This document shows, in pieces, positions 10,003 through 32,998 of a stretch of DNA of 33,470 nt. Every line of letters starts with the position of its first letter. Position 1 is the stretch's first letter. This DNA is from Atopobium sp. oral taxon 810 str. F0209 (GTDB lineage: Bacteria; Actinomycetota; Coriobacteriia; Coriobacteriales; Atopobiaceae): assembly GCF_000466405.1 (NCBI RefSeq), contig NZ_KE952970.1, positions 1 through 33,470 of the forward strand. The letters run 5' to 3'. The position numbers and the translations under genes are program-made. The notes under the pieces are model-generated. The model ran no database searches. It was not told where the DNA came from and saw only the letters and a program-made list of their open reading frames with translations.

Positions 10003-11574
10003 TTATGCTCCAGCCCAGGCTATCTTCTTCATGATCTTTCTAATGTTGTGTCCCATAGCTATTAATCTAAATTCAAGTTCTACTTTCTCAATACTTCTTA
10101 GGCTGAATCTCGTGAAGAGCATATTGCGTTTTATATCCCCAAACACGGTTTCAACATCCACAGCGCGTTTCTTTCGCAATTTCGTTTTGGTTTCTGAGCA
10201 TAGCAGCTCGCTTGCTCTCTCCTTATATTTACGGAGCTTCGAATTGATTCGAATAACTTTTTGGTAGGAAGAATTGGGGTTCTTCATGCATTTGTGCTTG
10301 CCTGTGCAATTGCTGCAATCGATACAACGATACTCCCGGAAGCTGGTATGAAACCCTAAGTCGCTAACACTATCCCTCACACGCTCAAAGACAAGCCTGC
10401 GACCTTCGGGGCATGTGTATGAGTTGGATTTATCATCGAAGGGCCAATTTGCTATGCGGAAGGGATCATCTCTCCATTTCCTGTTCTTGATCTCTCTGAA
10501 GAACTCGCTGTGTTTCACATATGCGTTAACGCCCTTACCATTGAGGTAGGTGTAGTTCTCTTCGCTGCCATATCCTGCATCAGCTACTATGTTTTCCGGG
10601 AGCTTTCCAAACTCGTCTTCGAGGTGTTTAAGGTGAGGGATTGTACACGCCGTATCTCCTGGGCGCCGATGGACTGTTGAGCAGATGATGAACTGATCCG
10701 AAGTGCCGATTTGGATGTTATATCCTGCCTTGAGTTGGCCATTTCCCATGTAATCATCCTTCATTCGCATGAAGGTCGCATCATGGTCGGTCTTCGAATA
10801 GCTGTTACGATTAGCAAGAACTTTCTTTTGTCTCTCGTATTTCTCCATACGAGGAAGGAAGTCCTTCTCAATCATTTTCTGTGTATGCTTAAGTTCTTTG
10901 ATCTTTTCTTTGTCACTTTTCTTCTTCTGTGTTCTGAGCCGTTGATTGATCTTTTCTGCTACCTCGCGGATCTTATCGGTATCAATCTGTTGAGGTTCAT
11001 CGGGGGTAAGTTTTTCCTCTTCATCATTGAGTTCATCAATGGCTTTAAGATGTGCATGTATTTTAGCTTGTAGCTTTTCGGTATATCTATCGGTCGATTT
11101 AGCCCATACAAACGTAAACTTGTTCGCATTTGCCTCAAGCTTAGTGCCATCAAGGAAGTAGTTGTCGAGATTTACCATGCCACAATCGGAGAGCGTCAAG
11201 ATAACGCTGGTGAAAACTTGTTCGAATACAGGACGAATGCGCTCTGAGCGAAAACGATTGATAGTGTTGTGTCTGAGTGGATGCATACCAGTAAGCCACA
11301 TAAGATTGATATCCTCATTGGTTGCTTGGGCAATCTTGCGACTGGAATAGATTCCTTTCGCATACGAATAGAGGATTACTTTTAAGAGCATGCTGGGGTC
11401 ATAGGCACTTGTGCCACCACCTGAGTAGAGTTCTGTAAAAATCTTACGATCAAGAGAATCGACCAAGGTATCAACAATACGTACCATAGCTTTTTTTGGA
11501 ATAAGATCTGAGATATCGGGAGGAAGTAGCATCATCTGGTGTTGCATGACTGGCTTAAATACCTGGTTCGTCAT
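10003..11574 (-). CDS. IS1182-family DDE transposase, intact
   Basis: A 523-residue transposase. The N-terminal part (about 15-200) resembles the DUF772 region of IS1182/IS5-like enzymes. The catalytic DDE residues appear to be the aspartate in NYFLDGTKLEANANKF, the aspartate in VADAGYGSEENYTYL and the glutamate in VETVFGDIKRN; a cysteine cluster (CIDCSNCTGKHKC) lies before the last. The start at 11574 has AGAGGAG seven bases upstream; the frame is open to 11619 without a ribosome site. No internal stop or frameshift is seen, so it may be active. Confidence 0.93.
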   Translation of the reverse strand: MTNQVFKPVMQHQMMLLPPDISDLIPKKAMVRIVDTLVDSLDRKIFTELYSGGGTSAYDPSMLLKVILYSYAKGIYSSRKIAQATNEDINLMWLTGMHPLRHNTINRFRSERIRPVFEQVFTSVILTLSDCGMVNLDNYFLDGTKLEANANKFTFVWAKSTDRYTEKLQAKIHAHLKAIDELNDEEEKLTPDEPQQIDTDKIREVAEKINQRLRTQKKKSDKEKIKELKHTQKMIEKDFLPRMEKYERQKKVLANRNSYSKTDHDATFMRMKDDYMGNGQLKAGYNIQIGTSDQFIICSTVHRRPGDTACTIPHLKHLEDEFGKLPENIVADAGYGSEENYTYLNGKGVNAYVKHSEFFREIKNRKWRDDPFRIANWPFDDKSNSYTCPEGRRLVFERVRDSVSDLGFHTSFREYRCIDCSNCTGKHKCMKNPNSSYQKVIRINSKLRKYKERASELLCSETKTKLRKKRAVDVETVFGDIKRNMLFTRFSLRSIEKVELEFRLIAMGHNIRKIMKKIAWAGA

Positions 11575-11747
11575 GGGAGACTCCTCTTTCCCTGATAAGG
11601 ATATTATACCATGGACCATATATATCCGCAGGTCAGAGCAGGTATATGTAACGTCTGATAGACACGGTAAGAATAAAGGGAAGGTCTTTTTGAGAAGCAG
11701 GAAGGCAACGATATATAAAGGGATTTAAGCCATATACCCATCGAGAG

Positions 11748-19838: not shown

Positions 19839-21113
19839 CTATTCCGATTTGCTCAACTCGTCCGCAAAAGTCTCAAGCGCAGAAAGTCCCGTCTTTAACA
19901 TCTTTTTACTCTTCTTTTTGGCAGCCTGAATCTGCGCCCGCTGTTTTGCCACCTGTTCGGCAGCAGGATCAGGCACAATCATCTCGCTTGAGTTAATGCG
20001 TTTCATCTCTAAGGCATGTTCTGGACACACTTGCACGCATGCACCACAGTTAACGCAGTAGGTAGGCTCCACCGAGAAATGCCCTGCTGCATCCAAACTG
20101 CAGGCGCGAACAGGGCAAACCTTAACGCAGTCACCACAAACCGTGCAACGCGATGCATCACACGCGGGGACTTCCCAAACCATTCTGTCAGCAAGTTCGG
20201 GATGGAACTGTAGCGTTGACAACACCAACTTGCGCTTTTGGGTAAGCTGACGGCGACGTAGCTCTTCATTTTTCATGCCAGTAACCTGCTCAAGCGTGCG
20301 CTGCAGGGTATTAATCTGATTGCTATGCGCCTTGATACGATTGGCAACCGCCTGTACACCAGAAACTGCAGGATTACCAGCTGTAACTAGTGTTGTACCC
20401 GCCTGAGCCATGCTACTAATAAACTGACGACGCTTGAATGCACGGCTCTGCTCATGAGTCATGTCGGCCTCGTCAACCTCAAGCCCCACGCTAAAAATTG
20501 AATGCTCTTCACCTTCTGCAATCGCTTCGGAATAATACTCTTCGCCCGTAACAGTACGACAGCGATCGCAAATGCCCAACGGCAGATAGACACTGATATT
20601 GGAATACTCTGCAAGCAAAGAAAACCACAGTTCCGAGGGTATAACACCCACACAGGGAAGCAGAACCTCATTGTCTTTGGGCAGACGCCCCAAGGCACGT
20701 GTGCAGGTCACATAGCAATCGTCATAGGTGCTTGCCACACGAGCAATTTCATCGTACAAATTACGCGCCATCTGGCGACGAGCAATAAATGCTTCGGTGG
20801 GACACGCAGCAATACAGAGTCCACACTTACGACAGTTATCCTCAACGATGACCTTCTTGCCATCATAGGTAATGGCTGCAACAGGGCACACCCGAGCGCA
20901 GCGGTCACACACATCCTGACCATCAGAGGTCGAACGAAGGCAAGAGGGCAAGCTAATACGCGGTTTATCCTTGTAATCAGCGGGGTTGTAATGAGGAATC
21001 GCATCAGGATCGCCCATCAGCTGATCGGCAACATTGCCTAAAGGATTGCGAACAGCCTGAAAATTATCTTGCAGATCGATGATTTCATCAATCATGTCGC
21101 GCTCTTTAGCCAT
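19839..21113 (-). CDS. Four-cluster ferredoxin-like iron-sulfur protein, role unknown
   Basis: A soluble-looking 424-residue protein with two separated pairs of [4Fe-4S] motifs. The first pair (CDRCARVCPVAAI and CRKCGLCIAACP) lies near 69-110, the second (CTVCGDCVKVCP and CVNCGACVQVCP) near 325-365. Between them is a domain with more cysteines (CYVTC, LLPC, GICDRC) and a twin-arginine-like KRRQFISSMAQAGTTLVTA that is internal, not a signal. The C-terminus is lysine-rich and coiled. Start: GGGGGAG just before 21113. I recognise no named family. The motif spacing says it carries electrons among four clusters; it has no visible enzyme partner here. It is next to ychF and a sugar transporter. Confidence 0.8.
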   Translation of the reverse strand: MAKERDMIDEIIDLQDNFQAVRNPLGNVADQLMGDPDAIPHYNPADYKDKPRISLPSCLRSTSDGQDVCDRCARVCPVAAITYDGKKVIVEDNCRKCGLCIAACPTEAFIARRQMARNLYDEIARVASTYDDCYVTCTRALGRLPKDNEVLLPCVGVIPSELWFSLLAEYSNISVYLPLGICDRCRTVTGEEYYSEAIAEGEEHSIFSVGLEVDEADMTHEQSRAFKRRQFISSMAQAGTTLVTAGNPAVSGVQAVANRIKAHSNQINTLQRTLEQVTGMKNEELRRRQLTQKRKLVLSTLQFHPELADRMVWEVPACDASRCTVCGDCVKVCPVRACSLDAAGHFSVEPTYCVNCGACVQVCPEHALEMKRINSSEMIVPDPAAEQVAKQRAQIQAAKKKSKKMLKTGLSALETFADELSKSE

Positions 21114-21191: not shown

Positions 21192-22079
21192 CTAGCCTTT
21201 GGTAAATCCAATAAGGATACCGCCCAGCGCAACCAAGGTCATCCCCGCAATTACCAGCTTGAGGCCTCGCGCAGAGCGACGTTCGTGCAGCAAAATCAAG
21301 CCTCCCAGCGTGGAAACAATGACATTTAGCTGAGAGAGTGTCCAGCCAACCGCTAGACCATTGAGTTGATTGGATATCAATACGCAGGCATTACCCGCAG
21401 CAAAAAAGGCTCCAGAACCAAGATTTTGCCAGGTCTTGCGTCCAAAAAGTGCTTCATCTGAGCCAAATAATTTCCACTTACACATAGGCAGACCAATTAA
21501 TGCTGTTGTCACCACCATAAAGAGTGCCTGTGGAAAAAGCAGATCAAGCCCGTCAACAGCAAAAAGATTTCCTGATGCAGCATAACTCACGTAAAACGCC
21601 GAAGATGCAATAACAAGAAGAAGCCCATGGGCGCCTGAGTTGCTCTGCTTGTCATTTTCAGCTTTGTCAGGACGTGATGAGAGAAAAACACCCAGAATAA
21701 CCAGTACCAATGCAATGCAGCCCACCAACAACTGACCTTCGCGGCGCCACTCGCCCAAAAATAAGACACCCACCGCAGAGGCGCCAAGTAGTTGCAGACC
21801 AGTAGAAATTGGTGCTGCACGAGAGACGCCCAACGCGTCAAAGCTCTTGATAAGCAAAATCTCTGCAAAGCTCCAAGAAATGCCATTGACTGCTGCTGCC
21901 AACAACAAAGTTACAGACCACAGAGGAGGTCGCACTATCAACATCACAACTGAGACCGCGAGCGCAGCTAGCACCATACCCATCTGCTTGTTGGTAGCGT
22001 TGCCCCCGATAAGTTGCATTACTGGACCAATCATGCCAAAACCAAAAGCCGGTATCAGTCCCACAAGAAGTGCGAGCAT
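21192..22079 (-). CDS. GRP-family (RbsU/GlcU-like) sugar transporter
   Basis: A 295-residue protein with about ten hydrophobic helices in the 5+5 layout of the drug/metabolite superfamily, and the look of the glucose/ribose porter family (PF06800): LIPAFGFGMIGPV at the N-terminus and LSQLNVIVSTLGGLILLHERRS in helix 9. Members take up glucose or ribose by proton symport. I chose the ATG at 22079, with GGGGGA close upstream; a TTG at 22106 has no ribosome site. It starts 97 bases after pdp in the same direction, so it may be the last gene of the nucleoside block and carry ribose or deoxyribose; that is inference from position. Confidence 0.75.
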   Translation of the reverse strand: MLALLVGLIPAFGFGMIGPVMQLIGGNATNKQMGMVLAALAVSVVMLIVRPPLWSVTLLLAAAVNGISWSFAEILLIKSFDALGVSRAAPISTGLQLLGASAVGVLFLGEWRREGQLLVGCIALVLVILGVFLSSRPDKAENDKQSNSGAHGLLLVIASSAFYVSYAASGNLFAVDGLDLLFPQALFMVVTTALIGLPMCKWKLFGSDEALFGRKTWQNLGSGAFFAAGNACVLISNQLNGLAVGWTLSQLNVIVSTLGGLILLHERRSARGLKLVIAGMTLVALGGILIGFTKG

Positions 22080-22175
22080 CCATCCCCCATCTGCAACAGA
22101 CAACAAAAGAACCTATAAGGATACAAAAAGAGACGCACCAGTAAACAACCACCAGCGCGTCTCCATTCGAAAAGT

Positions 22176-23507
22176 TTAGGCGTCCAAACGCTCAACACCA
22201 TTACGCGTTACACGTGCATGGAATAGAGGAATTGCCTTCGGCTGCTCAGGACGAATATCCAAAGCAGAACGGAAGACACGCTCACCCTCATCACAAAGCT
22301 GTTCTGTCGCCGCATAAAGCGTTGCCAACACATCGCCTTCGGCGATAGCATCTCCGCTCTTCTTGGCCAGAACAATGCCCGCAGAATAATCAATGGAATC
22401 TTCCTTCTTGGCACGACCTGCACCAAGCGCAACAGAAGCGATGCCACAGCGCTCGGTATCCATTGCGTAGAGATAACCAGCTTCCTTGGCAAGAACCTCA
22501 CGCTTGATGCGGGGTTCAACTAACTGCTCAAAGGGGTTATCAAGCAGTGCTGCATTGCCACCTTGGGCAGCAACCATATCCTTGAGCTTTGCCAAGCCGC
22601 AACCATTAGCAATCTGCTGACGTGCAAGCGCGCGGCACTCTTCCATCTCGCCCTTGCCTGCAAGATAAAGCATGTTGCCTGCCAGCTCGATGCAGATATC
22701 GGTAAGGTCCTTGGGGCCCTTGCCCTGCAGCGTTGCAGCGGCTTCAGCCACTTCAAGAGCATTACCAATGCAATTGCCCAGAGGGCGACCCATATCGGTA
22801 ATCATGGCAACCGTAGTACGACCCACATGCTCACCAATCTCGACCATAGCCTGTGCCAGCGCAATGGCGTCATCGACGGTCTTCATAAAGGCACCGCTAC
22901 CGCATTTAACGTCGAGCAAAATCTTGTCAGAACCAGCGGCAATCTTTTTGCTCATAATGCTCGAAGCAATGAGCGGCAGACTATCCACCGTTGCCGTAAC
23001 GTCGCGCAGCGCATACAGCTTCTTATCGGCAGGAACAAGATTGCCCGTCTGACCAATGATGGCCACGCCAACCTTGCTGACAATCTCAACAAAACGGTCA
23101 CGCTCAACCGAGGTTGAAAGACCAGGGATAGACTCCAACTTGTCTAAGGTGCCACCCGTATGACCCAAGCCTCGACCACTCATCTTTGCAGTCTTCACGC
23201 CTAGGGAGGCAACAAGAGGAGCAATGACCAGCGAGGTTTTGTCACCAACACCACCAGTAGAATGCTTATCTACCTTAATGCCAGGGATGTCAGAGAGATC
23301 AACAACATCTCCCGAAGCTACCATATCCATGGTCAGTGTCGCGGTCTCATGAGGTGTCATGCCACGGAAGTAAATAGCCATACACAATGCTGATGCCTGA
23401 TAGTCAGGAATATCACCCGATACATAGCCATCAACAAAGAACTTGATCTGCTCGTCAGTTAGCTCTCCACCATTGCGTTTGGTCTCAATGATGTCGTACA
23501 TCCTCAT
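22176..23507 (-). CDS. pdp: Pyrimidine-nucleoside phosphorylase
   Basis: Splits uridine, thymidine and deoxyuridine with phosphate to the base and (deoxy)ribose-1-phosphate. It is 443 residues long with the family motifs KHSTGGVGDKTSLVIAPLVA and SGRGLGHTGGTLDKLESI in the phosphate/nucleoside site; the N-terminus MRMYDIIETKRNGGELT and the PADKKLYALRDVT segment match the Bacillus-type Pdp better than E. coli DeoA. The start codon overlaps the cdd stop (ATGA at 23507-23504), with AAAGGAGG ten bases upstream, so the two are translationally coupled. The product deoxyribose-1-phosphate feeds DeoB. Confidence 0.95.
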   Translation of the reverse strand: MRMYDIIETKRNGGELTDEQIKFFVDGYVSGDIPDYQASALCMAIYFRGMTPHETATLTMDMVASGDVVDLSDIPGIKVDKHSTGGVGDKTSLVIAPLVASLGVKTAKMSGRGLGHTGGTLDKLESIPGLSTSVERDRFVEIVSKVGVAIIGQTGNLVPADKKLYALRDVTATVDSLPLIASSIMSKKIAAGSDKILLDVKCGSGAFMKTVDDAIALAQAMVEIGEHVGRTTVAMITDMGRPLGNCIGNALEVAEAAATLQGKGPKDLTDICIELAGNMLYLAGKGEMEECRALARQQIANGCGLAKLKDMVAAQGGNAALLDNPFEQLVEPRIKREVLAKEAGYLYAMDTERCGIASVALGAGRAKKEDSIDYSAGIVLAKKSGDAIAEGDVLATLYAATEQLCDEGERVFRSALDIRPEQPKAIPLFHARVTRNGVERLDA

Positions 23508-23947
23508 TGGGCATTCGCCTCCTTTTGCGCTGCCACCTCAAGATCTTGAGGTCCAAAACCCAATGGCAGCAAATCTTTTAGTAGATACGTTTTGATTTCG
23601 CTCTCAGAGCATGCAAGCACAATCTCAAAGGTCTCGGGGTCACAAAACTCACGCATAACCTGGCGACACACGCCACAAGGAGCGCACCAATCGCTAATGG
23701 GCAAACCCGCTGCTCCGCCCACAATGGCGATAGCTGAAAATGTATTGCAACCCTCGCTCACCGCTTTGAAAAATGCTGTGCGCTCTGCACAATTGGTGGG
23801 GGTATAGGATGCATTTTCAATATTGCAGCCGTGCCACAAGCTGCCATCAGCACCCAGCAGCGCTGCCCCTACCGCAAAATGTGAATATGGCGTATATGCC
23901 TTTTCACGTGCAGCGATAGCTTCTTTAACTAAAGCCTGCTTGTCCAT
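23504..23947 (-). CDS. cdd: Cytidine deaminase
   Basis: Converts cytidine and deoxycytidine to uridine and deoxyuridine, which Pdp then cleaves. The 147-residue protein is of the small tetrameric type. The zinc site is Cys53 with catalytic Glu55 in TNCAERTA, and Cys88 and Cys91 in CAPCGVCRQ. GGGAGGT precedes the start. A gap of about 160 bases separates it from the ABC permease upstream; it holds an imperfect hairpin (CCCGTC / GACGGG near 23970-23997) but probably does not end the transcript. Confidence 0.97.
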   Translation of the reverse strand: MDKQALVKEAIAAREKAYTPYSHFAVGAALLGADGSLWHGCNIENASYTPTNCAERTAFFKAVSEGCNTFSAIAIVGGAAGLPISDWCAPCGVCRQVMREFCDPETFEIVLACSESEIKTYLLKDLLPLGFGPQDLEVAAQKEANAQ

Positions 23948-24110: not shown

Positions 24111-25031
24111 TTAGCGACTACCCTTCAAATAGGGCACGCCATCTGCCTTGGGAGCAGCGGAGCGACCAACAAAGAGAACCAACACGATGATGGTCAGTAC
24201 ATAGGGCAGCATTGCCATAAGCTGGCTGGGGATAGCAATGCTTCCACCACCAAGAACCACGGTCAGAGCCTGAGCCAAGCCAAAGAGCAGGCAGGCACCA
24301 TAAGCGCCGTGGGGCTTCCATTTACCAAAAATGACGGCGGCAAGTGCGATGAAGCCCTGGCCACTAATAGCTGTCTGGGTAAACTGAGAAACGATTGCGA
24401 GCGTGACGGAAGCGCCACCAAAACCAGCAAGCATGCCCGAAATCAACACGCAAATAAAACGCGTGCGTTCGACATTAATGCCCAGCGTATCAGCGGCTGC
24501 AGGGTGCTCGCCAACAGCACGAATACGCAGACCCCACTTGGTCTTGTATAGAACAAACCACATAATGAGAGCTGCAGCAAAACCCAAAGCAACTGTCACG
24601 TCAACATTGAGACTGGCATAAGGAGTGCCATTAAGTGCGCCTTCGCCAAAGAGCTTGGGTAAAGTAGTGCACACGGGCGTCATAGCTGCATTGTCAAAGA
24701 GACGACGGCAAAAGAACAGAGCAATACCAGGCGCCAGCAAGTTAATAGCAACACCGGATACGGTCTGATCAGCATGGAAGGTTACCGATGCACCCGCATG
24801 CAACAAGGCAATAGCAGCGCCAGCAATACCTGCCATCAAGAAGCCCAACCAAGGGTTGCCAGTAAAATACGAAACGGCAGAGGCGGTAAAAGCACCTACA
24901 ACCATCATGCCTTCGATACCGATATTGACAACACCAGATCGCTCGGAGATGACACCCGACAGAGAGCCAAAGACTAGCGGAGTGGAGTACATCAGAGTAA
25001 TTCCGATAAGAAGCAGCAAGCTATTAAGCAT
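24111..25031 (-). CDS. nupQ: Nucleoside ABC transporter permease (NupQ-like)
   Basis: The second membrane subunit (306 residues) of a BMP-type nucleoside importer, with eight or more hydrophobic helices and the permease-loop motif RAVGEHPAAADTLGINVERTRF (residues split across a turn), typical of the BPD_transp_2 family. The start at 25031 overlaps the end of the previous gene by eight bases and has AAGGGGG seven bases upstream; an in-frame ATG at 25070 lies inside the neighbour. It pairs with the 376-residue permease to form the channel. Confidence 0.88.
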   Translation of the reverse strand: MLNSLLLLIGITLMYSTPLVFGSLSGVISERSGVVNIGIEGMMVVGAFTASAVSYFTGNPWLGFLMAGIAGAAIALLHAGASVTFHADQTVSGVAINLLAPGIALFFCRRLFDNAAMTPVCTTLPKLFGEGALNGTPYASLNVDVTVALGFAAALIMWFVLYKTKWGLRIRAVGEHPAAADTLGINVERTRFICVLISGMLAGFGGASVTLAIVSQFTQTAISGQGFIALAAVIFGKWKPHGAYGACLLFGLAQALTVVLGGGSIAIPSQLMAMLPYVLTIIVLVLFVGRSAAPKADGVPYLKGSR

Positions 25032-26154
25032 TTTCGGCCCCCTTCGACTTGCGCTCGAGCCTATCAGCAATCATGGGGACAATCTGCGAGAGTGCCATAA
25101 GGAACACAATCGTGCCAATCATGATGTTAATGATGTCAGATGGTGCACCCATAACCTGCTGAACACTCTGACCACCATAGATGAGACCACTGAAAAGCAA
25201 ACCAGCAAAAATGCAGCCAATGGGCGAGGAACCAGCAATAAAGGCAACGGACAAGCCGTTAAAGCCGTTGTTCTCAAAGGCAGCAAGCGTCGAGATATTA
25301 TGAGGCTCAAGACCCGTCACAGACAGCGCACCAGCAAGGCCGCAGAGAGCACCCGAGATAAGCATGCAGGTCACAATATTGCGGTTGACGTTAATACCTG
25401 CAAACTGAGCAGCCTCACGATTGAGACCAACAGCGCGCATCTCATAGCCAATTTTGGTGCGCTTAAGCAGCACGGCAATCAGAATGGCAGCGGCAACTGC
25501 AATGAGAATGCCGATATTGACGTCTGTCTTGACCAGCACTTCATAAAGCCAAGGTGTACCACTCAAGGCATTAAGACCTTCTTCCGAAAGTTTCCACTGA
25601 GGAAGGATCATCGTGTAACTGGAGGGATTCACTGGGAAGGTACTTGTAGACTCAGGCTGGTGGAAAGTCTGGGTGTTGACAACAAAGTTGCAGAGATAAA
25701 GGCTAATCCAGTTAAACATAATGCTGGTAATAACCTCATTAATACCAAACCTAGCTTTGAGCCAACCAACCGCAGCTCCGCCTAGGGCGCCGCCAAGGGT
25801 GCCTGCCAAGATAACCAGAGGAATCTGTAGCAAGGGTGGAAGATTAAAGGTCACGCCAACAATAACAGCACAGATCGTACCAAGGATATACTGCCCCTCA
25901 GCACCAATATTGAAAAGGCCTGTTTTGAAAGCAAAGGCAACAGCCGTGCCAGTCAGGATGATTGGCGTCGCCTTGATGATGACGTTAGAAATGTACTTGG
26001 GACGACCAATCATGCCATTAAACATGGCAGCAAAAGAAGGACCAGGTGCATATCCGGCAGCAGCCAGAACAATCGCTGCAATAATAAAACCTACAACAAT
26101 TGCCAAAATCGAAGCGGCAATTGGCTTTCTCAGGAGCTTAACTATCGTTTTCAT
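25024..26154 (-). CDS. nupP: Nucleoside ABC transporter permease (NupP-like)
   Basis: A 376-residue integral-membrane subunit of the same importer. The N-terminal helix is followed by a periplasmic-side stretch, then IGAEGQYILGTI and, in the second half, the loop RAVGLNREAAQFAGINVNR that contacts the ATPase. Its start overlaps the stop of the ATPase gene (ATGA at 26154-26151). Larger first permeases of about 350 residues are usual in BmpA/NupOPQ systems. Confidence 0.9.
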   Translation of the reverse strand: MKTIVKLLRKPIAASILAIVVGFIIAAIVLAAAGYAPGPSFAAMFNGMIGRPKYISNVIIKATPIILTGTAVAFAFKTGLFNIGAEGQYILGTICAVIVGVTFNLPPLLQIPLVILAGTLGGALGGAAVGWLKARFGINEVITSIMFNWISLYLCNFVVNTQTFHQPESTSTFPVNPSSYTMILPQWKLSEEGLNALSGTPWLYEVLVKTDVNIGILIAVAAAILIAVLLKRTKIGYEMRAVGLNREAAQFAGINVNRNIVTCMLISGALCGLAGALSVTGLEPHNISTLAAFENNGFNGLSVAFIAGSSPIGCIFAGLLFSGLIYGGQSVQQVMGAPSDIINIMIGTIVFLMALSQIVPMIADRLERKSKGAENA

Positions 26155-27680
26155 TCGTTGCCTCCTCCTGCCATCAGGAGACCAACCTGCTCCTCGGTGA
26201 CCGTTCCCTGAGCAAAGCTGCCTACGATTTGGCCGTCATGAATAACAGCGATGGTGTCCGAAACGTCCATAACCTCATCGAGTTCGAGCGAGACAAGCAG
26301 AATTGCTGCACCACGATCACGCTCGCGAATCAGCGCCTTATGCACAAATTCGATAGCGCCAACATCGAGACCACGTGTAGGCTGTACCGCAACAAGCAAA
26401 TCAGGCTCGCTAGAAACTTCGCGAGCAATAATGACTTTTTGCTGGTTGCCGCCCGAAAGACCAGATGCGGTGTGCGTCTCGCAGCCCTCAGGACGAATGT
26501 CATATTCTTCGATTAGGCCACGGGTGAACTCCTCAACTTTGGCAAGGTCAAGCATGATGCCATGACCAAACTGCTCTTCGTTGTGGCGTTCAAGAACTGC
26601 GTTTTCAGCAACAGTAAAGGGCAAAACCAAACCCCAACGGTGACGATCAGAAGGTACCGTGGCAACACGGGTGTCAATGGTCGTTTTTGGAGTGGTGTTT
26701 TGGATTTGCTTGCCCTTAATCTCGATGGTGCCTGCTTCAGCATGGACGAGATTATCGATAGCATCGACAAATTCCTTCTGGCCATTACCATCAATACCAG
26801 CAATACCCACGATTTCGCCAGCGCGTACATCAAGATTGAGGCCTTTAACAACCTCAATACCACGATCGTCCTTGACGTGTAGATCACGGATGGACAAGAC
26901 AGTCTCACCAGGATTGGCAGGACCCTTATCAACAGACAGGTTGACATGGCGGCCAACCATCTTGGAAGCCAACTCAGTCTCGTTGGTCTTTGAGACATCA
27001 ACGGTACCCATGTAGCGACCACGACGAATGATGGTACATTCGTCAGCAGAAGACATAATCTCCTTGAGCTTGTGCGTGATGATAATGATGGTCTTACCCT
27101 TGCTTACCAAATCACGCATGATTTTGATGAGCTGCTCAATCTCCTGTGGAGTCAAAACTGCCGTCGGCTCATCCAAAATCAGAGTATCGGCACCACGATA
27201 AAGTGCTTTTAGAATCTCGACACGCTGCTGCATGCCGACAGTAATATCCTCAATTAATGCGTCAGGATCGACCTCGAGACCATACTCCTCGACAATCTTG
27301 ACAACTTCTTGGCGTGCCTTGGCCATATCGAGTACGCCTGCGCCAGAGCAGACCTCTTCACCAAGGACGATATTTTCGGTAACTGTAAAGTTTTCTACCA
27401 GCATAAAGTGCTGGTGAACCATGCCAATGCCATGTTTGATGGCTTCGGTAGGACTAGTAATGCTGACCCTCTCACCGTTGAGAAAAACATCTCCTCCATC
27501 AGCCTGGTAGAGTCCATATAGGACATTCATGAGCGTGGACTTGCCAGCACCATTTTCTCCCAGGATTGCATGGATTGACTGCTTTTTCACGTCGAGGTCA
27601 ACCCCGTCAAGAGCTCGGAATGACCCGAACACCTTGACTATGCCATGCATCTGCACAGCGTAATCTGGACCGACTTCCAT
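26151..27680 (-). CDS. nupO: Nucleoside ABC transporter ATP-binding protein (NupO-like)
   Basis: A 509-residue double-domain ATPase of the sugar/nucleoside (Carb/RbsA-like) type. Domain 1 has an intact Walker A GENGAGKST, Walker B LILDEPTAVLTP and a degenerate signature ITVGMQQRVEIL. Domain 2 has a proper signature ASGLSGGNQQKVIIARE but its Walker A is replaced by IAGIDGNGQKEF, the usual pattern for this family, so one composite site hydrolyses ATP. Start 27680 is preceded by GGGGGAG. It lies after bmpA, with a strong hairpin between them. Confidence 0.94.
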   Translation of the reverse strand: MEVGPDYAVQMHGIVKVFGSFRALDGVDLDVKKQSIHAILGENGAGKSTLMNVLYGLYQADGGDVFLNGERVSITSPTEAIKHGIGMVHQHFMLVENFTVTENIVLGEEVCSGAGVLDMAKARQEVVKIVEEYGLEVDPDALIEDITVGMQQRVEILKALYRGADTLILDEPTAVLTPQEIEQLIKIMRDLVSKGKTIIIITHKLKEIMSSADECTIIRRGRYMGTVDVSKTNETELASKMVGRHVNLSVDKGPANPGETVLSIRDLHVKDDRGIEVVKGLNLDVRAGEIVGIAGIDGNGQKEFVDAIDNLVHAEAGTIEIKGKQIQNTTPKTTIDTRVATVPSDRHRWGLVLPFTVAENAVLERHNEEQFGHGIMLDLAKVEEFTRGLIEEYDIRPEGCETHTASGLSGGNQQKVIIAREVSSEPDLLVAVQPTRGLDVGAIEFVHKALIRERDRGAAILLVSLELDEVMDVSDTIAVIHDGQIVGSFAQGTVTEEQVGLLMAGGGNE

Positions 27681-27707
27681 GTTCTCCCCCTGCGACACAT
27701 TCGACAA

Positions 27708-27742
27708 GCGGGGCACCTCGCACTATGTCCGAGGTGCCCCGC
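27708..27742 (-). promoter_or_regulatory. Intercistronic hairpin between bmpA and the ATPase gene
   Basis: GCGGGGCACCTC and GAGGTGCCCCGC form a perfect 12-bp stem with an 11-base loop, 21 bases past the bmpA stop codon. There is no T-tract. In binding-protein operons such hairpins usually protect the upstream part of the message, so the lipoprotein is made in excess over the transporter; partial termination is the alternative. Confidence 0.65.
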
Positions 27743-27763: not shown

Positions 27764-28831
27764 TTAAAGAGTCTTGATGTACTCGTCATAGGTCTCCTTG
27801 TTGAAAGGAGGCTTGATGTCGCCAGCTTTGATCTTATCGCCGAGTTCGATGGCTGCCTTGTAAACCTCGTCATCAATGAGCTTGTGCTCTTCAGGGATGC
27901 CTACGCAATCCTCAGAGAAGCCCAGGTCAATATTGGTGCCACCCTCAATGTCGCCAGCCTGAATCTTAGTGGAAACCTCAACGATAGCCTTGTCAACACG
28001 CTTCAGGGCAGAGCTAATGACATTGTCGGGAGCAAGGTAAGCCTGATCGCGGTCAACACCGATAGCAAACTTATTGGCTTCCTTAGCAGCCTCGATAACG
28101 CCTGCGCCAACGCCGCCTGCTGCGTGGAAGACTACATCGCAGCCACTGGAATACATCTTAGAAGCAATAGCCTTGCCCTTTGCGGAGTCAGAGAAGCTGT
28201 CAGCATACTGACCCTGGACCTCAACATTGGTGCCCTGCTCCTTGTTGGCATAAGCAACGCCAGCCTGATAACCATAATCAAACTGATCGATAACAACACC
28301 GGAGATACCGCCGACAAAGCCAACCTTGTTGGTCTTGGTGGTACGAGCGGCAATATAGCCCATGAGGAAAGAAGGCTCCTGAGCACGGAAGGTAACACCG
28401 ATGAGGTTCTTGGGTGCATCCTCAAATGCATTGTCGATAACGGCAAACTGCACCTCAGGGTTGGTCTTTGCGGAGTGAGCAACAGCGTCAGCCATTGCAA
28501 AACCAATGCCCCAAACGAGGTTGGAACCATCGTCGACTGCCTTGTCGAGGTTGGTAGCGTAGTCGGATTCCTGCTTGGACTCAATATACTGAACGGTCCA
28601 GCCATTGTCCTTCTCCAGCTGCTGCAGGCCCTCCCAAGAGCTCTGGTTGAAGGATTGGTCAGAGACACCACCTGTGTCGGTAACCATCTCGATCTTGTAG
28701 TCCTTGCCGCTCTTGCCAGCGTCAGCGGAACCAGTACCACCAGCGTTGCCGCCGCCGCATGCCGTCAGACCAGCGGTTACTGCGAAAGCCGCTGCGGTGC
28801 CCAGAAAGTGCCTGCGCGAAATGTCCTGCAT
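27764..28831 (-). CDS. bmpA: BMP-family nucleoside-binding lipoprotein
   Basis: The extracellular substrate-binding subunit, 355 residues, anchored by lipid. The N-terminus has both a twin-arginine-like SRRHFLG and a lipobox LTAC with Cys25, followed by a glycine-rich linker. The mature domain has the BMP motifs TDTGGVSDQSFNQSSW near 51, VDDGSNLVWGIGF near 98, and GVDRDQAYLAPDNVISS near 258. BMP proteins of this kind bind purine and pyrimidine nucleosides, which fits the neighbours deoD, cdd and pdp. AGAAGGGA precedes the start. It is followed by the ATPase and two permeases in the same direction. Confidence 0.95.
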   Translation of the reverse strand: MQDISRRHFLGTAAAFAVTAGLTACGGGNAGGTGSADAGKSGKDYKIEMVTDTGGVSDQSFNQSSWEGLQQLEKDNGWTVQYIESKQESDYATNLDKAVDDGSNLVWGIGFAMADAVAHSAKTNPEVQFAVIDNAFEDAPKNLIGVTFRAQEPSFLMGYIAARTTKTNKVGFVGGISGVVIDQFDYGYQAGVAYANKEQGTNVEVQGQYADSFSDSAKGKAIASKMYSSGCDVVFHAAGGVGAGVIEAAKEANKFAIGVDRDQAYLAPDNVISSALKRVDKAIVEVSTKIQAGDIEGGTNIDLGFSEDCVGIPEEHKLIDDEVYKAAIELGDKIKAGDIKPPFNKETYDEYIKTL

Positions 28832-28990: not shown

Positions 28991-29713
28991 TTACTTCTCA
29001 GGAATAGCCAAAGACAAGGCAACCTCCATCATCTGTGTAAAGCTGGTCTGCCTCTCCTCAGCAGGAAGTGCCTCGCCAGACAACGGCAGGTCAGAGACGG
29101 TAAGCAAGCAGAGCGCGCGCTTCTTTGCATAGGCAGCGTTGAGATAGAGAGCCGCTGCTTCCATTTCGACAGCAAGAACGCCCATGGATGCCCAACGCTC
29201 GTTGACCGTGGGATCTGCATTGTAGAAAGCATCTGCAGACAGTACATTACCGACACGTGTAGGAACACCCAGTTCCTCGGCCTTGTTGACAGCACGACGG
29301 AGCAAATCGTAGTCGGCAATAGGAGCATACGTACCTGGCATGTTGAACTGTGCCGCGTAGTTGGAATCGGTGCAGGCTCCCATACCAATTACCAAGTCAC
29401 GAAGCTGCACACCCTCAGCAAGACCACCCGCGCTACCAATGCGAATAATCTGATCAACATCGTAGAAGTTAAAAAGCTCGTAGGTATAAATACCTACGGA
29501 AGGAATGCCCATACCGCCACCCATAACCGAGACAGGCTGTCCCTGGTAGGTGCCCGTGAACCCAAGCATATTACGAACGGTATTAAAGCAGGTCACATCC
29601 TCAAGATAGTGCTCTGCCACATACTGTGCGCGCAGGGGGTCACCCGGCATAAGGACGGTCTTTGCAATCTGACCCTCAAGGGCAGCATTGTGCGGAGTCG
29701 GTACATTAGGCAT
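28991..29713 (-). CDS. deoD: Purine-nucleoside phosphorylase DeoD
   Basis: Cleaves inosine, guanosine and adenosine (and deoxy forms) with phosphate. It is 240 residues long, the hexameric trimeric-lobe (DeoD) type, with [18 protein letters not shown] near the phosphate site, [16 protein letters not shown], the ribose-binding VEMEAAALY and the catalytic aspartate in TVSDLP. The start at 29713 overlaps the deoB stop by eight bases and has GGAGG nine bases upstream; the open frame to 29875 lies within deoB. The sequence between its stop and bmpA (28832-28990) is gene-free, with a GC-rich possible hairpin near 28860-28880. Confidence 0.96.
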
Positions 29714-30908
29714 TATCAGCAACCTCCAAGATATCGCCCAAACGAGACGTGCCATTTTCAAGAGCAGGAACACCCAGGTAGTCAAGAACAGTGGCAGAAA
29801 CATCAGCAAACGTAGTGCTGGTACCAAGGTTGGCACCAGAACGCACCTGAGGGCCTGCGATAACCCAAGGTACATACTCGCGGGAATGGTCAGTTGAAGG
29901 TGTCACAGGATCACAGCCGTGGTCAGCGGACACCATAAAGAGATCGCCTTCGCGAAGTTTGCCAAGAATGGTCGGCATGTGCTCATCAAAATAAGCCAGC
30001 GCCTTGGCATAACCATCAACATCGTTGCGGTGACCATAAATCATGTCGGTATCAACAAGGTTGACAAAGCAAAGGCCCTCAAAGTCGCGATCAAGCAGTT
30101 CGATAGTGCGGTCGATACCCTCGGGATTGCCCGTAGTAGGGATGGACTCTTTGATGCCACGGTGAGCAAAAATGTCATAAATCTTGCCAACAGAGATAAC
30201 GTCAACGCCAGCCTTGGTCAGAGCATCGAGCATAGTCTCGCCCGTAGGCTCCAGCGAGAAGTCATGACGACGCGGGGTTCTGGTGTAGGAGCCTTCCTCA
30301 CCAATAAAGGGACGAGCAATAACACGGGCAACTGCATGCTTGCCAGTCAAAATCTTGCGAGCAATGCGGCAATACTCGTAGAGCTGCTCGCAGGAAACAA
30401 CATCCTCGTGTGCGGCAATCTGGAAGACACTGTCAGCAGAGGTGTAGACAATCAGCGAGCCAGTCTCAACCATCTCGCGGCCATAGTCACGAATAACATC
30501 CGTGCCAGAATAGGGCTTGTTGCAGAGAACCTTACGGCCAGTCTGGCGCTCAAACTCCTCAATGATCTCTGCGGGGAAACCATCAGGATAGGTCGGGAAA
30601 CGCTCAGGTGAAATAACGCCTGCAAGTTCCCAGTGACCAACAGTGGTGTCCTTGCCCTTGGAAGCCTCACGCAGGCGACCAAATGCGCCGGTAGGTGCAT
30701 CAACAGGCTTAAGATCTACGTCATAGACGGAATCAAGCGCACCATCGATATTAAACAAGCCAAGCTTTTGAAGATTGGGCATGGAGAAGTGGGGGCTGGT
30801 TGCGCATGCACAAAGAGTATTGCTGCCCTCGTCACCGTACTCTGGAGCATCAGGCTCTTCGCCAATACCAAAGCTATCCAGCACAACAATAAAGACCCTC
30901 TTCTTCAT
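29706..30908 (-). CDS. deoB: Phosphopentomutase
   Basis: Interconverts (deoxy)ribose-1- and 5-phosphate, linking nucleoside cleavage to DeoC and the pentose phosphate pathway. The 400-residue alkaline-phosphatase-fold protein has metal ligands in [10 protein letters not shown] (Asp11) and SADHGCDP, and the phosphorylated threonine in [11 protein letters not shown] (Thr88). The N-terminal [11 protein letters not shown] and a usual length of about 395 support the start, with AAGGTG upstream. It is first in the leftward salvage operon. Confidence 0.97.
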
Positions 30909-31242
30909 CCAATCACCTTGCCCTCAGATTTTGTCGTGACATATGTCCGCTTACAGAAATTGATACGACCTATAAAGCATATGTTTACTTACTCGTTTCT
31001 TCTACATTTCTCAAGTAGAAGGTAGGTTTTTTCCAGTAAGTGGTTGTTTAGGCAAGATTTTTTGATACAGCACGCGGAAATATACGGCATTTAAGCAGGT
31101 GTAAGGCTTGTCTTAATACTTGTTGAGAGCTTTATTTACTTAGCAATTGTGAGCGCTACTTTTCCATTTCTTTTCTCATATTTTTTGCTTTATGATAATA
31201 CCCGTTTAGAGTACTAATCATTTGTTTATATCTGGAGGATAA
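30909..31242. promoter_or_regulatory. Divergent control region, deoB operon / HTH-PfkB gene
   Basis: No gene lies here. It holds a perfect palindrome GACATATGTC at 30938-30947 and a second CATATGT at 30978-30984, both on the deoB side. An inverted repeat CTTCTAC/GTAGAAG at 30999-31021 is followed by a T-run. On the other side, AATTGTGAGCGCT at 31145-31157 matches a half-site of a LacI-type operator, and TATGAT/GATAAT near 31189-31199 is a likely -10 for the rightward gene. The actual promoters cannot be fixed by eye. Confidence 0.5.
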
Positions 31243-32352
31243 ATGATCACCGAACGCGAGCGTCAAATTTTGGGTTGGATACGCGAGAATCCCTCAATTA
31301 CGCAAAAAGAATTAGCGGAGAAAGCTCAAATCTCCCGCTCGTCGGTGGCGGTCCATATCTCCAATCTGATGCGTAAAGGTGCCATTCGCGGGCGCCGTTA
31401 TATTCTTGAGGAAAGTCCCTATATCGTTTCTATTGGTGCATCTCGCGTGGACGTGATTGGCTGGCCAGAGATGCAACACACGCTAGGCTCGGGCGATAAT
31501 GGCTCAGACAGCCATCGAGGCATCGTGCGCACCGTTGTTAGTGGCACTGCTCATAACATTGCTCAAACTTTGGCACATCTTGACTGCCCTGTACGCTTGG
31601 TGTCTGTTTTTGGTGGTGACGACGAGGGTGAGCGCCTTATTGCCTCTTGCAAACGTGACGGTATCGACATAAGCGAATCCATGACGGCACGCGGCATGGA
31701 ATCCGCTTCCAACGTTTTTTTAACTCGCCCTGATGGTACACGACAGCTTGTTCTCAGCGATTCAAAGGCATTTGATTTGCTCTCCCCCGACTACTTGGCA
31801 GAGCATCTTGCCACCATTAATCGAGCAGCAATCTGTATTGTTGAATCATCAGTACCGCAGGCCTCACGAGATTTTTTGTGGAAAAGCGTGCAAGTACCCA
31901 TGGCGTATGTGTCATCTACCAGCAGAAATGGTATTCCCACAGAGACAGATTTGTCACGCCCAGACCTCATTAAGATTGACATTTCTACACTCGAAGCGCT
32001 TGTAGAGCGCATATTACCCAGCCTTATGGAGATAAAAATAGCAAGCTCTGAGGTATTGGCGCGTGGGCCTCGCGCAGTATTTGTATCGCTTGAGGACGGC
32101 GGATTGTTCTGCTTGGGCCAAGGCGAAGAAGCACATTTGCCCTGGGTAGGAGGTCCACTGCCACCCTCAGGAGAATTCCAAGATGCTTTGTCTGCCAGCA
32201 TTATCTGGGGCTGGATCCAAGGATTTACGGCAAAAAAATGCGCCCAAGCAGGACTCGTAGCTGCTGCTTATCACGCTAACGCACGGGGTGCGACACGCGT
32301 AACACTTGACAGCAAAAGCTTGCGAGCCCGCTTGGGCGCAGAATCAGACTAG
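31243..32352 (+). CDS. HTH-PfkB fusion: winged-helix plus ribokinase-fold protein
   Basis: A 369-residue protein with GGAGG four bases before the start. Residues 1-55 are a winged helix (ERERQILGWIRENPSITQKE...SRSSVAVHISNL). From 60 on it has a PfkB (ribokinase) fold: VVSGTAHNIAQTLAHL matches the first sugar-binding signature and FGGDDEGERLI follows. The second PfkB signature, normally a GAGD catalytic motif, is here PPSGEFQDALSASI; an aspartate is kept but the glycine turn is altered. HTH-PfkB proteins often act as sugar or nucleoside kinases or as regulators that use a kinase fold as sensor. Its place, divergent to deoB and convergent with deoC, suggests it controls nucleoside salvage or phosphorylates a nucleoside or pentose. 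Confidence 0.82.
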   Translation: MITERERQILGWIRENPSITQKELAEKAQISRSSVAVHISNLMRKGAIRGRRYILEESPYIVSIGASRVDVIGWPEMQHTLGSGDNGSDSHRGIVRTVVSGTAHNIAQTLAHLDCPVRLVSVFGGDDEGERLIASCKRDGIDISESMTARGMESASNVFLTRPDGTRQLVLSDSKAFDLLSPDYLAEHLATINRAAICIVESSVPQASRDFLWKSVQVPMAYVSSTSRNGIPTETDLSRPDLIKIDISTLEALVERILPSLMEIKIASSEVLARGPRAVFVSLEDGGLFCLGQGEEAHLPWVGGPLPPSGEFQDALSASIIWGWIQGFTAKKCAQAGLVAAAYHANARGATRVTLDSKSLRARLGAESD

Positions 32353-32359
32353 CTAGGGT

Positions 32360-32998
32360 TTAGCTTACGATTGCGATGCTTGCGCTTGTACCCAGACGAT
32401 CAGCACCAGCTTCGACCATAGCCAAAGCCTCCTGCTGATTGTGGATACCACCAGCAGCCTTGATCTTGCAAGCGTCGCCTACGGTCTCACGCATCAGGCG
32501 AACATCCTCAATGGTAGCGCCGCCTGTGCTAAAGCCGGTGCTTGTCTTGACAAAGGCAGCACCAGCCTTGACGCAGTCCTGGCAAGCACGCACGATTTGA
32601 TCGTGATCAAGCAGGCAGCACTCAAGAATGACCTTGACGGGGTGGCCCTCAGCAGCCTTGACGACTTCAGCAATGTCATTGATAACGTACTCGTCATCGC
32701 CATCAATAAGTTTGCCTACGTTGATAACCATGTCAATCTCGGTGGTGCCATCCAGCACCGCCTGGTGAGCCTCAGCGGCCTTGCCAGCGGTAGTCGCAGC
32801 ACCCAGAGGGAAGCCGATGCAGGTGGTAACGCCTACGCCAGAATCACCCAAACGCTCAACAGCAAACTTGGTCCAGCAACCGTTGATAGAAACGGTAGCA
32901 AACTTGTACTCCATAGCCTCATCGCAGAGCTTGGCAAGATCTGCCTGAGTTGCATTGGCCTTAAGATTGGTGTGATCGATGCGCTCGTGAAGTTCCAT
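32360..32998 (-). CDS. deoC: Deoxyribose-phosphate aldolase
   Basis: Class I aldolase that cleaves 2-deoxyribose-5-phosphate to glyceraldehyde-3-phosphate and acetaldehyde, the last step of deoxynucleoside breakdown. The 212-residue TIM barrel has the Schiff-base lysine in AAFVKTSTGFSTGG (Lys151), Asp89 in EIDMVINVG and Lys180 in CKIKAAGGI, as in the family. GGAGAG precedes the start. It ends eight bases from the convergent HTH-PfkB gene, so there is almost no room for a terminator. It lies apart from the deoB operon, with its own promoter. Confidence 0.97.
   Translation of the reverse strand: MELHERIDHTNLKANATQADLAKLCDEAMEYKFATVSINGCWTKFAVERLGDSGVGVTTCIGFPLGAATTAGKAAEAHQAVLDGTTEIDMVINVGKLIDGDDEYVINDIAEVVKAAEGHPVKVILECCLLDHDQIVRACQDCVKAGAAFVKTSTGFSTGGATIEDVRLMRETVGDACKIKAAGGIHNQQEALAMVEAGADRLGTSASIAIVS

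Follow-up and report, generated by a model that had tools for sequence, protein, structure and literature searches.

In the window, by which we mean the whole 33,470-nucleotide stretch of Atopobium sp. oral taxon 810 str. F0209 that was analysed, a gene joining a helix-turn-helix (HTH) to a PfkB kinase domain lies beside the deo genes of nucleoside salvage. The locus raises the question of whether this HTH-PfkB protein is still a kinase or has become a regulator of its neighbours. A preliminary description had suggested that a kinase might have turned into a nucleoside- or pentose-sensing regulator.

The fused gene and its altered kinase motifs

The open reading frame at 31243..32352 (forward strand) is real at these coordinates; it encodes 369 aa from an ATG start and is preceded by a ribosome-binding-like GGAGGA at 31234-31239. 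An N-terminal winged helix-turn-helix occupies aa 1-52 (31243..31398, forward strand; Pfam HTH_24 at aa 4-49, E 1.3e-10, above the cut-off), and a degenerate PfkB domain of the PsuK type occupies aa 58-350 (31414..32292, forward strand; Pfam PfkB, PF00294, at aa 61-349, E 4.1e-13, 49.8 bits against a cut-off of 25.8). The top NCBIfam match was PRK09954 (NF007416, the YeiI family), with 133.8 bits, below the cut-off of 561. The coordinates, strand, fused winged helix and altered catalytic motif of the preliminary description were thereby confirmed. Its separation of the protein from DeoR and CytR, which regulate deo genes, also agreed with the Pfam scan, as neither DeoR-family nor LacI-family domains were among the 18 Pfam families listed at E ≤ 0.1; a ROK domain was likewise not among them.

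The gene is divergent from a minus-strand operon, deoB-deoD-bmp-ABC-cdd-pdp, and convergent with deoC (32360..32998, minus strand), so that the salvage operon named earlier could be identified gene by gene. Its first gene is deoB, encoding phosphopentomutase (29706..30908), followed by deoD, encoding purine-nucleoside phosphorylase (28991..29875), whose listed start is probably too early because the family match begins at about aa 60. Next come the Bmp/PnrA-type substrate-binding protein of an ABC importer (27764..28831, assigned by Pfam), the importer ATPase (26151..27716), permease 1 (25024..26154) and permease 2 (24111..25070), the cytidine deaminase gene cdd (23504..23947) and the pyrimidine-nucleoside phosphorylase gene pdp (22176..23507). 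All are on the minus strand, and all except the Bmp protein, like deoC, were assigned by both Pfam and NCBIfam. After pdp, at the end of the operon, lies a RhaT/RbsU-like sugar symporter gene (21192-22106; under family cut-offs). Between the operon and ychF is a gene for an EFR1-like ferredoxin-domain protein (19839-21113; just below the cut-off), and an IS1182-family transposase gene, above its family cut-off, is located at 10003-11619.

The kinase motifs were read from an alignment of the window protein with 15 intact HTH-bearing orthologues. The GG hinge had become SG (aa 100-101; 31540..31545), KPNxxE had become KIDISTLE (aa 244-251; 31972..31995), SLGxxG, corresponding to TxGxxG, had become SLEDGG, and the GAGD anion-hole motif had become EFQD (aa 311-314; 32173..32184), all on the forward strand. 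Thus TGAGD reads GEFQD, the GxGD motif is absent and both glycines of the turn are lost. The preliminary description had set SGEFQDAL against GAGD and was right that the motif is changed. However, because the catalytic segment aligns without gaps with the 15 intact orthologues, EFQD is the counterpart of GAGD, and the catalytic Asp is retained as D314. The first PfkB signature, described as recognisable, is itself worn (GG to SG, R to H). Parallel changes occur in the nearest relative found, Olsenella phocaeensis (locus L049, identical to L011), which reads NEFSD, SG, KLDVRLLG and PLDEGG at these places. A sequencing or frame error at the motif was ruled out, because O. phocaeensis shows the change too and it is accompanied by alterations in several further motifs.

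The substrate site was compared at 12 positions, namely the E. coli PsuK residues that contact pseudouridine, are suggested to do so or are catalytic, as given in PMC9247573. Only 5 of the 12 were kept in the window protein and 3 in that of O. phocaeensis (7 and 9 changed, respectively), and the two proteins differ from each other at several pocket residues. The ribose-binding Asp (D70), G101 and D314 were retained in both. These sequence data fit the proposed change from kinase to regulator; with 7 of 12 site residues changed, the proposed sensing of a nucleoside or pentose is no more than a possibility.

An AlphaFold model built from three sequences was weak (mean pLDDT 63.9, pTM 0.64); it was best at about residues 181-340 and fell below 50 at 67-100 and 121-175, stretches that include some of the substrate site. 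In this weak model, D314 is close to the beginning of a helix at 310-325. The first 15 Foldseek matches were chains of E. coli PsuK (TM-score by query length 0.52-0.59), whose structures (PDB 7vkp, 7vsk and 7vva) are the closest solved ones by both sequence and fold. E. coli PsuK, in contrast to the window protein, lacks an HTH and has its motifs and pocket intact. Of the checks proposed earlier, the structure prediction gave a PsuK-like fold, albeit from a poor model, and the alignment with pseudouridine kinases indicated no normal GxGD at the site but a retained catalytic Asp.

Descent from HTH-bearing pseudouridine kinases

Of 395 genomes searched in the order, 36 contained a match at E ≤ 1e-20, among them the window genome itself (1.95 Mb, 38 contigs, 99.47% complete). 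Judged from the match range and a reading by eye of the upstream frame, 17 copies carry the helix, 18 lack it and one (G123) is cut by a contig end. In 16 of the 17 genomes with an HTH-bearing gene, its divergent neighbour belongs to the same operon; this neighbour is deoB in 14 genomes, counting the window, and deoD in 2. The importer permease is present in all 17. TGxGD is kept in 15 of the 17 orthologues, and psuG is directly beside the gene in 12 of these 15. A search for PsuG (PF04227) in 41 genomes, comprising the 36 with a match and G001-G005, gave hits above the cut-off in 31, all within the 36. Among the psuG-bearing orthologues, 30 of 31 keep 11-12 of the 12 pseudouridine-site residues; the copy cut by the contig end keeps 6 of its 7 readable residues, and its sole change, V to I, occurs in most helix-less copies. 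Judged by sequence, the intact orthologues (HTH-PsuK) are therefore pseudouridine kinases with a DNA-binding domain of their own, encoded in a psuK-psuG operon.

PsuG above the cut-off was absent from 5 of the 36 genomes. In the window genome the PF04227 search gave no match; O. phocaeensis, whose assembly has gaps, gave one of only 19 bits, below the cut-off. The other three (G051, G116 and G117) form one clade in the tree and keep TGxGD, with the counterparts of S30 and Y97 changed. The Y97 counterpart is changed in all five psuG-less genomes and is Y in all 31 psuG-bearing ones, although the five represent about two independent losses. The HTH-PsuK loci L059, L060 and L061, from psuG-less genomes and with TGxGD intact and two pocket residues changed, possibly represent an intermediate or a kinase with a new substrate.

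In the tree, the window and O. phocaeensis proteins were grouped together (100/100) on a stem of 1.72 changes per column, and the pair sits inside the family's HTH-PsuK clade (100/98). Descent of the window protein from the PsuK clade was found by both tree and synteny. A clade of 11 tree rows (L066-L068, L072, L075-L077, L079, L080, L084 and L085) has the kinase without the helix, and its loci contain no copy of the palindrome described below at one mismatch or fewer. In O. phocaeensis, the nearest relative found, the ORF is conserved with 59% identity. Its HTH-PfkB gene lies away from the deo operon, with the salvage operon about 17 kb off; deoB was not found in this genome, and the promoter region of the salvage operon falls in an assembly gap. 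Its divergent neighbour is a homologue of the window's ferredoxin-domain gene, and 3' of it is an apparent second nucleoside operon (L049:10034-15245), recognised by eye and from weak tblastn matches, with a ribokinase-like kinase, an amidohydrolase, a nucleoside hydrolase, a phosphorylase and parts of a Bmp-type importer. No relatives were confirmed among viral contigs.

The two halves of the degenerate protein have evolved differently. Of the 24 helix columns invariant in the 15 intact orthologues, the window protein keeps 23 and that of O. phocaeensis all 24. In the kinase domain, 29 and 30 of 64 invariant columns are kept, respectively, 24 of them by both; 29 are lost in both, 13 to the same residue. 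Synonymous change between the two species has reached saturation, with pS at 0.82 for the kinase half and 0.95 for the helix; the corresponding dN values are 0.40 and 0.085, and the reading frame is whole in both. Against a rate clock based on importer permease 1 and the ATPase, fitted on 105 pairs of intact genomes, the identity of the pair was 54.0% in the kinase half, where 77.2% was expected (z −5.3), and 90.4% in the helix, where 91.3% was expected. All 30 degenerate-intact pairs gave kinase z values between −4.3 and −7.7, although these pairs share branches and are not independent. We interpret these rates and constraints as rapid change of the kinase half that later gave way to constraint, for a degenerate form that is represented by two whole genes only. 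That an open reading frame at 59% identity has been kept despite saturated synonymous change, and that 36 genomes of the order contain a match, also place the earlier observation beyond chance.

The strongest competing explanation is that the protein still acts as a kinase, on a new substrate and with an unusual anion hole, its helix making it both enzyme and regulator as in its ancestors. Consistent with such an enzyme, D314 (catalytic) and D70 (ribose-binding) are retained, and 57 of the 215 residues on which the window and O. phocaeensis proteins agree occur in no intact orthologue, suggesting a new function. However, the two species alike have changed both GxGD glycines as well as NxxE, TxGxxG and the hinge, and the psuG partner is gone, so that we consider an active kinase improbable.

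Still less likely is a dying gene, made needless by the loss of psuG but not yet broken. The fast change of the kinase half would fit such decay, and decay has indeed occurred in a sister species (G001), which contains a broken gene remnant (L065:7585-9806) that still reads EFQD. This genome has lost the sequence between deoB and the gene together with its sites, the helix, two kinase stretches (much of the kinase part), deoD and the importer, whereas its remaining neighbours show 90-98% protein identity. The G001 copy is what a neutral wreck looks like, and the window and O. phocaeensis genes do not resemble it. A full reading frame in two species in the face of synonymous saturation, the contrast in dN between the halves, the near-complete set of invariant helix columns and a palindrome site upstream of the gene in both species (described below) all argue against decay.

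An operator-like palindrome upstream of HTH-bearing genes

A dyad, TAARCANNTGYTTA, was recognised by eye in the divergent upstream regions. In the window, the 334-bp gap between deoB and the HTH-PfkB gene (30909-31242) contains an operator-like site with one mismatch to it (AAAGCATATGTTTA, 30974..30987), located 66 bp upstream of the deoB start, a weaker site with two mismatches (TAAGTGGTTGTTTA, 31037..31050) and a further site with one mismatch (TAATCATTTGTTTA, 31215..31228), ending 15 bp upstream of the HTH-PfkB start. In O. phocaeensis, a site with one mismatch lies 30 bp upstream of the HTH-PfkB start.

With at most one mismatch, 20 sites were found in 14 of the 17 HTH-bearing regions (200 shuffles: mean 0.12, maximum 2), and with at most two mismatches, 36 sites in 17 of 17 (shuffles: mean 1.3, maximum 6). 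Three of the 15 intact HTH-bearing loci (L050-L052) had sites only with two mismatches. The palindrome was absent from all three helix-less intergenic regions tested, even at three mismatches, and at one mismatch or fewer none occurred in 19 whole loci with a helix-less copy or no copy.

As the palindrome had been derived from the same family regions in which it was first counted, it was tested elsewhere. In Bacilli, the class of an Oceanobacillus genome, 89 of 398 sampled genomes had a match at E ≤ 1e-80, and the best 29 of 90 matching loci were read, leaving out the Oceanobacillus copy already seen. Within 220 bp upstream, the palindrome was present in 28 of these 29 with at most two mismatches (300 shuffles: mean 1.5, maximum 5) and in 6 of 29 with at most one (mean 0.11, maximum 2); in the 12 non-redundant loci, the corresponding counts were 12 and 4. 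All 29 of these best-matching loci keep GxGD and the pocket and have psuG directly downstream. Two Bacilli HTH-PsuK matches (G610:C12:252790-253881 and G582:C10:60057-61148) contain one in-frame TAA each.

Twelve other 200-bp upstream regions were taken from loci chosen for fetching (Oceanobacillus, Aeromonas, Acetoanaerobium, Ilyobacter, five alphaproteobacteria, Listeria, E. coli psuK and E. coli yeiI), and in some of them (Oceanobacillus, E. coli) sites had been seen previously, the others having been scanned once before. Six of the 12 had a site with at most one mismatch (1000 shuffles: mean 0.05, maximum 1). Such sites were missing upstream in Aeromonas, two Neorhizobium, R. johnstonii, Paroceanicella and yeiI; the R. 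johnstonii region had one site at two mismatches. The palindrome of the window thus recurs at most of the Bacilli HTH-PsuK loci read and at some other HTH-PsuK loci. The HTH-PsuK proteins of Bacilli, Fusobacteriota, Alphaproteobacteria and other genomes of the family share the fused architecture and a homologous helix with the window protein but, unlike it, keep TGxGD and the pocket, with V in place of N14 in the five alphaproteobacterial ones. In the five annotated plasmid loci other than E. coli, psuG is directly downstream of HTH-psuK.

Across the window genome, 15 sites with at most one mismatch were counted, compared with 6 for a reversed control, and two of the 15 are in the 334-bp gap. 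The window as a whole contains four sites at two mismatches or fewer, no more than expected by chance (28 of 100 shuffles reach four), three of which fall in this gap. Of the 13 stronger sites outside the gap, most were judged intragenic from open frames alone, and beside the three whose neighbours were viewed there was no nucleoside gene, the neighbours being a response regulator, a LacI-type regulator, a DUF1015 protein and two proteins without a match. A wider regulon is not claimed.

A promoter-like pair was found next to a palindrome site in 20 of 52 regions, and in Ilyobacter and Listeria the site starts where the −10-like hexamer ends. These positions hint at repression. No sigma-70-like promoter reaching 9 of 12 was found in the window's 334-bp gap, and because this gap has no consensus-like promoter, repression at the locus itself is a step that we infer.

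A proposed change from kinase to regulator in the window and in E. coli

We assign a probability of roughly 0.7 to the reading of the window protein as a pseudokinase that regulates the transcription of nucleoside salvage genes and derives from a bifunctional HTH-PsuK. This reading of the sequence data builds on what comparison showed of its descent, the loss of the kinase motifs and of psuG, the conservation of the palindrome and the constraint on the helix. The claim of a kinase turned regulator is well supported by the intact HTH-PsuK at the same locus, the loss of psuG, the selective change of the kinase half beside a constrained helix and the palindrome in 30909-31242. We infer that the protein binds DNA as a dimer, represses transcription, responds to a ligand and lacks kinase activity. 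It is probably a repressor, and our choice of repression over activation is a guess.

The ancestor would have been an HTH-PsuK, a pseudouridine kinase with a winged helix encoded in an operon with psuG, and may have bound TAARCANNTGYTTA-type operators at its own promoter and at the divergent deo promoter. In the lineage that the window shares with O. phocaeensis, psuG was lost, the ATP and anion-hole motifs and most of the pseudouridine site disappeared from the kinase half, and the helix and the operators were retained. Most likely a dimer of the present regulator sits on the sites at 30974-30987, 31215-31228 and perhaps 31037-31050, where it would repress its own gene and deoB-deoD-bmp-ABC-cdd-pdp. 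It would be released by a ligand, perhaps a nucleoside or a pentose (phosphate), bound in the remodelled cleft of the PfkB domain. A DNA binder that senses nothing, with the PfkB domain as a mere dimerisation scaffold, would account for pocket residues that are changed in both species and differ between them, but seems very doubtful given that D70, G101 and D314 are kept in both and the PfkB domain is under constraint.

The ROK-family repressors NagC, Mlc and XylR combine a sugar-kinase fold with an N-terminal HTH and became repressors. We liken the window protein to them, although ROK proteins have the actin/hexokinase fold and the window protein has the ribokinase fold. Our reading would offer a testable case of an enzyme becoming a gene switch, because one bacterial family contains the end point, a form resembling the ancestor and what may be an intermediate, in which psuG is gone, TGxGD is intact and two residues of the pocket have changed.

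E. coli YeiI (b2160), whose family gave the window's best match, has the same HTH-PfkB layout and is degenerate too, with FGADD for TGAGD and with NxxE and TxGxxG changed. It keeps 11 of the 12 pseudouridine-site residues, compared with 5 in the window protein, which scored far under the YeiI family cut-off. As the tree forces separate origins on YeiI and the window lineage, there were at least two origins of degenerate forms, and YeiI appears to have undergone this change independently. We predict that YeiI is a pseudouridine-responsive regulator of psuKGT, the window protein being a second, more changed case.

More broadly, at about even odds, HTH-PsuK constitute a widespread and so far undescribed class of pseudouridine kinases that regulate their own genes through a shared operator. 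At least twice, such kinases would have given rise to a pure regulator: once as YeiI, which would repress psuKGT and sense pseudouridine, and once as the window protein, with a new ligand and control of the deo/nucleoside-import operon after the loss of psuG. Such a history would be the ribokinase-fold counterpart of the ROK change from kinase to repressor. Our reading also predicts both a function and binding sites for YeiI, an uncharacterised protein that is open to direct testing in a laboratory strain. Titles and opening parts of abstracts of open-licence papers contained no HTH-PfkB regulator, PfkB pseudokinase or psu regulator, although such reports may exist. YeiI is termed an "uncharacterized sugar kinase" in PMC12506659, where a machine-learning model predicts pseudouridine kinase function for it even though a strain mutated in psuK is unable to use pseudouridine; it is termed a hypothetical transcription factor in PMC6055005, and yeiI is merely listed beside nfo in PMC3946193. 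An E. coli evolution study (PMC7858067) saw a mutation between psuK and fruA in three of its populations that might touch the sites; it was set aside, as its exact place was not clear and the region also differs between the parental strains.

In E. coli K-12, yeiI (L104:5701-6789) is 5.6 kb from psuK, and two tandem operator-like sites (L104:13367-13398) are located 70-101 bp upstream of psuK; when that 16-kb stretch was shuffled 200 times, at least two sites with at most one mismatch arose in 2 cases. A strain with an 86%-identical YeiI has the same sites, but its psuK is almost the same as well, so this is not independent evidence. For the kinase half of YeiI, dN/dS between the two alleles is about 0.1 (0.105/1.028). 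The 91-bp stretch with the psuK sites was matched over ≥ 80% in 4,164 of 5,426 E. coli genomes, and yeiI was found over ≥ 80% of its length in 5,370 of them.
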